Assembly: GCA_016839275.1 (NCBI GenBank)
Contig: JAEOUM010000222.1
Location: forward strand, 1-58,413
Direction of reading: 5' to 3'
DNA length: 58,413 bases
Origin: Candidatus Thorarchaeota archaeon
GTDB lineage: Archaea > Asgardarchaeota > Thorarchaeia > Thorarchaeales > Thorarchaeaceae
The position numbers were made by a program, and so were the translations under genes. The notes beneath the pieces are model-generated. The model did not search any database. It was given only the letters and a program-made list of their open reading frames with translations, and was not told where the DNA came from. Below, piece by piece: positions 13,318 through 16,359 of the stretch; within the stretch, counting starts at the first letter, position 1; each line of letters opens with the position of its first letter.

Positions 13318-14604
13318 TTAGCAAGGTCCATCTTTCTTCTTTGATTTCTTGTTTTGCGTCCAAAGGAATTCAGCTAACCTCTCCTGTGCGCTCCATGAAC
13401 CTGTCATCTCTTTTCGTCTAGAAAGTTCCCCCAACCGACGTCTACTCTCTGAGTCCAATTCTCCCGGAGGCATTTCCTCATAGACACTTCCGGGCAATGG
13501 CATGAAGACATGTCCATGGGTCTTTGCGCCCATCTCGACTAGTGTATAGCAGAGCTCGATACTATCACGAAGTTCTTTCTTGGTTTCTCCAGGAAGTCCA
13601 AATATCATATCAACGTGTGGTGTAAAATCCGAGTCAAGTGCTATTCTGACAGCTCTCATACCTTGTTCTACAGTATGATGACGATTTGCAAGGGATAACA
13701 CTCTGTCACTACTTGATTGTAATCCGATTTGCACCGATGTATTTGCTACGTAGCTTCTTAACATCTCTAGGATTGGTTGAGTCACAAACTCTGGCCTAAC
13801 TTCTGAGGGGAACGAACCGAAAAACATCTCATCAAGACCTTCTACTTTGGTACTCTCGCGTAAAAGAGACTCCAATTTCTCTGGTTCTGCCCTCATACCT
13901 TTTCCACCGTATGAAAGTGCATTTGGAGAGAGAAACCACGCCCGAGTGAATCCGCTTTTCTCTACAGCTGCGGTAAGCCACTTGATAACCGATGCGACAG
14001 ATCTGTGTCTCACTTTACAACCGGTTAGAAATGGTGTACAACAAAACTTACACTTGAAAGGGCATCCTCTAGTGATCTCTATAGGTCCCACGATATTCAT
14101 TCCTATGGCGAAAGGAGGATATTTGTCTAGATCAACAATAGGAATCTCTTGAGGCCGCGGCCAGATTTCAGAGGATCTTCCCACAACTCCCTGTATTTTT
14201 AGTGGGTCTTTTCCAGAAAGGAGCGCATCAACTAGTTCAGGGAATGTATTTTCCCCCTCTCCAATTACAGCATAATCAAAACCACTCAGAAACAGGTCTT
14301 TCGGCCTGGCGCTTGCATGAGGCCCCCCGCCAACGATGGTGACTTGCTTTCCAAACTTCTCTCTTATTCGTCTGACCTCTTCGAAAATCCTCTCCGTCTG
14401 AGTACTCATCACCGAATGAGCAATTATTGTTTGTCCTTTTTCGACACTCTTCCGAATATCATCATTCGTTAGATTAGTGGGCGCTCTGATTTCTAGGTCT
14501 AGAAGTCGGGGGTCTGTCTCTATAGCCCCAAGAAGGGCGGCTACGCTATACCGGGACGAGGAATGTGTACTAAAGAAAAGAGAGTTAGAACACAATTGAT
14601 GCAC
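13318..14604 (-). CDS. B12-binding domain/radical SAM protein (MJ1487-like family)
   Basis: N-terminal cobalamin-binding-like domain (VTIVGGGPHASARPKDLF) and GCPFKCKFCCTPFLTG radical SAM cluster motif. Confidence 0.8.
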   Translation of the reverse strand: MHQLCSNSLFFSTHSSSRYSVAALLGAIETDPRLLDLEIRAPTNLTNDDIRKSVEKGQTIIAHSVMSTQTERIFEEVRRIREKFGKQVTIVGGGPHASARPKDLFLSGFDYAVIGEGENTFPELVDALLSGKDPLKIQGVVGRSSEIWPRPQEIPIVDLDKYPPFAIGMNIVGPIEITRGCPFKCKFCCTPFLTGCKVRHRSVASVIKWLTAAVEKSGFTRAWFLSPNALSYGGKGMRAEPEKLESLLRESTKVEGLDEMFFGSFPSEVRPEFVTQPILEMLRSYVANTSVQIGLQSSSDRVLSLANRHHTVEQGMRAVRIALDSDFTPHVDMIFGLPGETKKELRDSIELCYTLVEMGAKTHGHVFMPLPGSVYEEMPPGELDSESRRRLGELSRRKEMTGSWSAQERLAEFLWTQNKKSKKKDGPC

Positions 14605-14609
14605 ACGCT

Positions 14610-15200
14610 TCAGCTGACTACGTGTTCTGCGACACCGGCTTTAGTCACACTCATGACTCTGATGTCGCCTCCAGACTGAATGTCTCGTGCAATACCAGCT
14701 TTGACAGCCTTTATCGCTATCTCTTCAGCCTCTTTGACTGTGATTTCGGGTTTGTAATAATTTTCAAGAACACCATAAGCTGTTCTGTCCCCAGTACCCG
14801 TAGCAGTGATGTCTTCTGGGATGAGGGAACCACCCATATCCAATGAGTACATCTGTGGACCCGTTGAGTCTATACCAATAACAACCGTCTGAACATACAG
14901 AGGTGTCATTCTAATAGAATAGAGTGTGTTTGCAAGCATCTTAGCCAGTGCTTTTACGGTGATGGGCTTTTTCTGGTTTAGTTCGTACAGCTTAATCTGG
15001 GCCTGCAGTCTATTCACAAGCATCTGATAGTCTGATACTAATCCAGCAGAGGCCAATACAATTGTATCTGTGAGTTTGAATGCTTTGATTCCCTTCTCGC
15101 TGAGAACAAGAGTTCCCCAGCTAATCAGCGAATCAGTAGCGACTACAACACCATCAGTGCATTTAATTCCAACAACAGTGGCACCAGTAGGAAATGACAT
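14610..15200 (-). CDS. psmB: Proteasome beta subunit homolog with Thr1 to Ala substitution (predicted inactive)
   Basis: MSFPTG-ATVVGIKCTDGVVVATDSLISWGTLVLSEKGIKAFKL...RDIQSGGDI; start set to ATG at 15200 because the ORF-track start overlaps the divergent gene. Confidence 0.82.
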   Translation of the reverse strand: MSFPTGATVVGIKCTDGVVVATDSLISWGTLVLSEKGIKAFKLTDTIVLASAGLVSDYQMLVNRLQAQIKLYELNQKKPITVKALAKMLANTLYSIRMTPLYVQTVVIGIDSTGPQMYSLDMGGSLIPEDITATGTGDRTAYGVLENYYKPEITVKEAEEIAIKAVKAGIARDIQSGGDIRVMSVTKAGVAEHVVS

Positions 15201-15342
15201 AGTTAATGCGCCTCCAAGTGGGAGTCCGTCTAACTTGGTCACGTCCACTCGTTTTAAAACGTTTGCGAACTGTCCGTAATTATAGATTCTGGAGTGACTT
15301 GAGTTGCGCCGATTAAATCCCTTTGCCAGTATTCCCACAATC

Positions 15343-16359
15343 ATGACTGCAGAGGAGATTATCGAGTTCGCGCATAACAGATCCACGCGGATTAGCATGA
15401 AGAGTTCACTCCGCATGAAGCGAGAAGACCGATCTAGGATTCGTGAGATTACAAGACTACAAGAGTTCTCCAAACAAGTGAAGGCTAAGCTCACTCAGGT
15501 AGTTGAGGAGTTCCCCTCTATCGATAGACTCAATCCATTCTATCTCGAACTCACTGGTATTCTTGTAGGAGTAGACAAACTCAAACAATCACTAGGCGCA
15601 GTTCACAATTGCATTCCTCCCATAGATGAGATTACAGATAAGCACATCATGGCTCTGAAACTGTCTACTGATTTTCGCCAAATGAAGAAGACTCGAAGTG
15701 CTGCGAAGGGTAGAATCTCATCCATACTACGGGCAACAGCGCCCAATCTAGATTTCATTATCGAGGCAAAGAAAGTCCTCTCAAAGTTACCTGGAATTGC
15801 ACCTAACATTCCTTCAATTGTATGTGCAGGATTTCCTAATGTCGGAAAATCAACACTTGTAAAGATGGTTTCTACAGCAGAGCCTGAAATTGCATACTAT
15901 CCCTTCACTACAAGGAAGTTAATCATCGGTCATCTCAAAGTTGGGAATCAGAATGTCCAGATTGTAGATACACCTGGAATTCTAGATAGACCCATGAGTG
16001 AACGAAATGATATAGAACTCCAGGCTGTTGCAGCCTTGAAATATTTGGCAAATGTAATAATTTTCATGATTGACCCCTCCGAGGCATGTGGGTGGACATT
16101 TGATCAGCAGTTGAATCTACTCACTGAAGTACAACGGATGTTTCCACTGAACCCTCTCTTCATTGCACTCAATAAAATCGATATTACCCCCGACAGTCAA
16201 CTTGAGATTGCAAGAGCTCGGCTCCCGAATGCATACGAGATTATAGCTGTCAACCGGATAGGTGTAGACCAGCTTCTACAGGATGCGATAAAAGAGGTTG
16301 ACCTAAAACCAATGCAAGAGTCTATCGATGACTATCTTAAGACTCTCTCAGGAGAGTAA
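15343..16359 (+). CDS. NOG1-like GTPase (Obg/HflX superfamily)
   Basis: VCAGFPNVGKSTLVKMVSTAEPEIAYYPFTTRKLIIGH, VDTPGILDRP, ALNKID; ATG at 15343 preferred over TTG at 15304. Confidence 0.9.
   Translation: MTAEEIIEFAHNRSTRISMKSSLRMKREDRSRIREITRLQEFSKQVKAKLTQVVEEFPSIDRLNPFYLELTGILVGVDKLKQSLGAVHNCIPPIDEITDKHIMALKLSTDFRQMKKTRSAAKGRISSILRATAPNLDFIIEAKKVLSKLPGIAPNIPSIVCAGFPNVGKSTLVKMVSTAEPEIAYYPFTTRKLIIGHLKVGNQNVQIVDTPGILDRPMSERNDIELQAVAALKYLANVIIFMIDPSEACGWTFDQQLNLLTEVQRMFPLNPLFIALNKIDITPDSQLEIARARLPNAYEIIAVNRIGVDQLLQDAIKEVDLKPMQESIDDYLKTLSGE

Follow-up and report, generated by a model that had tools for sequence, protein, structure and literature searches.

A proteasome beta subunit with alanine in place of the catalytic threonine in a Thorarchaeota genome, and the archaeal class around it

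The window, a stretch of 58,413 nucleotides covering contig JAEOUM010000222.1 of a Candidatus Thorarchaeota archaeon (assembly GCA_016839275.1), carries on its minus strand a gene for a proteasome beta subunit that has alanine where the catalytic threonine (Thr1) is expected. Thr1 is also the residue with which proteasome beta subunits process themselves. The locus thus raises the question whether the alanine is an error, a sign of decay, or the mark of a subunit that serves the proteasome in a way other than by catalysis. The relevant features are the following.

15304..16359, plus strand: NOG1-type GTPase gene, divergently transcribed, genomic context; a neighbour conserved in Asgard archaea and Thermoproteota
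14610..15200, minus strand: gene for an Ala1-type (non-catalytic) proteasome beta subunit of 196 amino acids, from profile matches and orthologues
15183..15200, minus strand: leader MSFPTG, six residues; exactly six in all orthologues of the family, counted from the nearest ATG
15180..15182, minus strand: alanine codon GCC at the catalytic Thr1 position, from alignment and orthologues
15132..15134, minus strand: Asp17 codon GAT, retained (alignment)
15084..15086, minus strand: Lys33 codon AAA, retained (alignment); Lys in 160 of 160 rows of the class
14667..14687, minus strand: RDIQSGG motif (Asp166/Ser169 region), retained (alignment)
13318..14604, minus strand: B12-binding/radical SAM gene (TIGR04013), downstream, genomic context; a neighbour conserved within the family

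A conserved beta subunit lacking Thr1

The reading frame is complete, with an ATG at 15200 and a stop at 14610. In three orthologues (L053, L055 and L057) a stop codon lies immediately ahead of the homologous first codon, which fixes the start of the gene. The protein is a member of the proteasome family (PF00227, 1.2e-50, 172 bits against a cut-off of 22.4). With the NCBIfam model for archaeal beta subunits, TIGR03634, it scored 204.3 bits, just under the equivalog cut-off of 224, as expected of a paralogue other than the standard active subunit. Of the features expected of an active archaeal beta, Asp17, Lys33 and RDxxSG are present and Thr1 is replaced by alanine (GCC). At the maturation site the sequence is MSFPTG|A1-T-V-V-G5-I-K, and Asp17 and Lys33 align in register. 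The first-pass annotation had described the replacement of Thr1, its GCC codon on the minus strand and the retention of the Asp17 and Lys33 equivalents and the RDxxSGG region, and alignment confirmed all of these in residue, position and strand.

The position aligned with catalytic Ser129 is occupied by threonine (GTGD) in the window beta. Threonine occurs here in 86 of the 160 rows of the Ala/Gly1 class and in none of 64 Thr1 betas. The Lys33, Gly47 and Asp166 positions are fully conserved in the class that lacks Thr1, and since this conservation persists without catalysis these residues must be kept for folding or for some other activity, a point against the reading proposed below.

A sequencing or assembly error, or a pseudogene, has only the odd residue itself in its favour. 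The source genome comprises 239 contigs totalling 2.58 Mb and is 84% complete. Orthologues with 67-92% identity are present in 42 of the 47 genomes of the family, the five genomes without one being 52-87% complete, and every one of the 42 has Ala1. The alanine is encoded by GCA in 23, GCC in 9, GCG in 6 and GCT in 3 of the 41 distinct family sequences. Furthermore, dN/dS was 0.04-0.07, about 0.05, by the NG86 method against near orthologues, the synonymous sites of more distant pairs being near saturation. Together with the intact frame, the conserved gene order and the variety of codons, this refutes an origin of Ala1 by error or decay, to which we give practically no weight. The alanine noted in this genome is therefore real. 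It is not peculiar to the genome, being the rule in the family and found in at least 16 Asgard families.

An active partner and the spread of the class

The source genome contains four PF00227 genes: the window beta, one Thr1 beta and two alpha subunits. The Thr1 beta (C164:156-812) has the boundary STG|TTTIGM, retains Asp17 and Lys33 and is 39% identical to the window beta, so the prediction that an active beta should exist elsewhere in the genome was correct. The two beta genes sit on separate contigs, so the genome offers no physical link between them, which counts against joint assembly. The two alpha subunits (L002:1408-2139 and L003:1393-2139, on contigs C33 and C80 respectively) are 39% identical. 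One keeps the N-terminal YDR motif; the other reads YDM and adjoins genes for SBDS-like and Rrp4-like proteins. Most genomes of the family likewise have four PF00227 genes.

Orthologues with Ala1 came from 16 Asgard families. Four further sampled Asgard families (f15, f17, f21 and f23) yielded a single beta each, of the Thr1 type, which allows loss of the paralogue to be placed on the Asgard tree. For family f21 a hidden, divergent Ala1 beta was considered and rejected: the third match was a divergent alpha-like gene and not a beta. This very divergent gene (MYDSRVPYDKSAAIWSPDGELVQL) lies directly beside the single Thr1 beta (L275, about 805-1476; also in L276 and L277).

When named genomes were scanned with a query headed by Saci0662 of Sulfolobus, 80 loci were returned, nearly all from Thermoproteota or Bathyarchaeota, with Ala at residue 1 in 65, Gly in 13, Ser in one and one truncated sequence. 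Over the whole class (160 rows, 158 of them readable) residue 1 was Ala in 144, Gly in 13, Ser in one and Thr in none. A Thr1 beta was also present in 19 of the 20 searched genomes that were reached through Ala/Gly/Ser1 loci, the exception being a metagenome genome in which a single beta was found. A two-beta proteasome with one active and one dead subunit thus appears to be the ordinary state in much of the Asgard archaea and Thermoproteota, well beyond the Sulfolobales.

Two minor observations concern individual loci. Glycine at residue 1, in the context TGT or PGT, occurs in Caldivirga and some other Thermoproteota (L180, L186, L176, L178, L218 and L232) and is the same residue as in the eukaryotic subunits b3 and b6. 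A contig titled 'Euryarchaeota archaeon' (L165) carries a Sulfolobales-like Ala1 beta with 64% identity to Saci0662 and is probably mislabelled or part of a mixed bin.

Common ancestry with Saci0662 and the proposed role

In a tree of 102 archaeal beta sequences, calculated with residue 1 and everything before it excluded, 54 Ala/Gly/Ser1 betas from Asgard archaea and Thermoproteota, including Saci0662, form one side of a single branch. This branch had a bootstrap support of 100 and an SH-aLRT of 99, and was present in 200 of 200 bootstrap trees. Independent loss of Thr1 in the two phyla is not favoured, as the tree needs one change. Gene order agrees with a common clade of the window beta and Saci0662, since the NOG1-type neighbour is found in both phyla: among Ala1-type loci it is divergently placed at 41 of 42 in the family, 17 of 40 in other Asgard archaea and 24 in Thermoproteota, the latter read over short flanks only. 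We know of no functional link between the NOG1-type GTPase and the proteasome. We take the window beta and Saci0662 of Sulfolobus acidocaldarius to be orthologues. The comparison with the Sulfolobales, originally drawn as an analogy, thereby acquires a basis in descent.

For Sulfolobus the properties of such a subunit have been established. Truncated Saci0662 and the alpha subunit form a 28-subunit 20S barrel that is inactive, whereas the Thr1 subunit Saci0909 alone gives no stable complex with alpha; it joins the ring, at a lower ratio, if Saci0662 is present and then confers activity (PMC4569737). In that work both Sulfolobus betas were taken to have an equivalent threonine, and the truncated Saci0662 was designed to expose the presumed T1 (PMC4569737). 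The residue pattern of the clade suggests that the threonine chosen was Thr2.

An AF2 model of the window beta (pLDDT 89, pTM 0.86) superimposes on the Saci0613/Saci0662 particle (6z46) with an rmsd of 1.5 and a TMt of 0.94. The two proteins share 38% identity over 183 columns, fall in the same clade even with residue 1 excluded, each occur alongside a single Thr1 beta in their respective genomes and have a NOG1-type gene beside many of their relatives. They differ at residue 17, which is Asp in the window beta and Glu in Saci0662, and in alpha subunits, of which the source genome encodes two and S. acidocaldarius a single one. The function of Saci0662 has been measured, whereas the window beta is known from its sequence and predicted fold. 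With the active betas of A. fulgidus, T. acidophilum and P. furiosus (PsmB1 and PsmB2) the window beta shares the fold, Asp/Glu17, Lys33 and RDxxSG, but those subunits have Thr1; in P. furiosus threonine is present in both betas, as T7 and T11 (PMC3605417).

We consider the window gene to encode a non-catalytic 20S beta subunit, orthologous to Saci0662, that co-assembles with the Thr1 beta and the alpha subunits of its own genome and likely has a structural role, with a probability of about 0.88. The observations behind this reading are the sequence, its conservation, the clade, the active partner, the gene order and the predicted fold. The proposal of a structural or regulatory beta paralogue is supported; the clade includes Saci0662, whose 20S particle with alpha is inactive. 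That the subunit co-assembles in this organism, in what ratio, and what becomes of its leader are inferred, as is a scaffold role in the Asgard cell. The Ala1 subunit lacks the nucleophile for peptide cleavage and self-processing. It would stack on the alpha ring, occupy some or most of the positions in the beta ring and let the Thr1 subunit enter, and its share of the ring would set the number of active positions among the 14 beta sites. Since Thr1 is absent, the subunit cannot remove its own leader, and MSFPTG would either stay on or be trimmed by an adjacent active subunit.

The inactive barrel of truncated Saci0662 and alpha, a stable and complete 20S particle (PMC4569737; 6z46), could also be taken as a precedent for an Ala1 subunit that builds its own all-inactive ring, a regulatory or storage barrel apart from the active proteasome. 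We find this unlikely, because Saci0909 needs Saci0662 for a stable complex with alpha and enters mixed rings (PMC4569737), and both beta genes are retained together in nearly every genome. Still less probable is an active subunit in which trimming of the leader and Ala1 exposes Thr2 as the nucleophile. All orthologues of the family have Thr2, and Asp17, Lys33 and the RDxxSG motif are preserved, but the class as a whole does not conserve Thr2, 23 of its 158 members having A, C, V or S instead, and such a shift would displace the geometry of the first strand by one residue, as judged from established structural knowledge. Truncated Saci0662 with an exposed threonine, moreover, gave an inactive particle (PMC4569737). 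The early doubt about Thr2 as a nucleophile is upheld by the variable position 2 and by the inactive Saci0662 20S. A non-catalytic subunit working beside the Thr1 beta remains the preferred reading.

Inactive archaeal betas are already known as a kind from Sulfolobus, and the window beta is a further member. What is added here is the breadth of the inactive class, its descent as one clade and the gene order that recurs in both phyla, for which we claim no priority. MEROPS 2017 noted the expanded Asgard proteasome genes and drew inactive betas speculatively. A search of the openly available literature returned no paper on an inactive beta in Thorarchaeota.

Relation to the inactive eukaryotic subunits

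The Ala1 class offers a testable archaeal candidate source for the non-catalytic eukaryotic betas. The active (b1, b2, b5) and inactive (b3, b4, b6, b7) eukaryotic subunits may have inherited their split from an archaeal Thr1/Ala1 duplication that predates the separation of Asgard archaea and Thermoproteota, the inactive ones then descending from the Ala1 paralogue; the sequence comparisons lead us to hold this only tentatively, as a possibility more doubtful than probable. The eukaryotic set comprised human and yeast b1-b7, checked against PDB chains, with yeast b6 slightly different from its chain. In the best tree b3, b4, b6 and b7 grouped with the archaeal Ala1 class and b1, b2 and b5 with the Thr1 class (support 99/98 with 65 rows and 100/97 with 116 rows), on eukaryotic branches that are very long and among subunits that loss of catalysis may make alike without kinship. 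A single eukaryotic beta clade was not rejected (AU p 0.256 with 65 rows and 0.074 with 116 rows). Once 22 columns at or near catalytic residues had been taken out, the best tree no longer showed this grouping, though it was not rejected either (p 0.45). When the subunits were placed singly b3, b6 and b7 fell on the Ala1 side and b4 on the Thr1 side, with no AU test decisive.

The subunits b3, b4, b6 and b7 are non-catalytic betas that co-assemble with active ones, as is proposed for the Ala1 class, and residue 1 of b3 and b6 is Gly. They differ from the Ala1 class in their very long branches, and b4 scores nearer the Thr1 profile. In the profile comparison b1, b2 and b5 were clearly Thr1-like, b3 and b6 weakly Ala1-like, b7 near zero and b4 Thr1-like.
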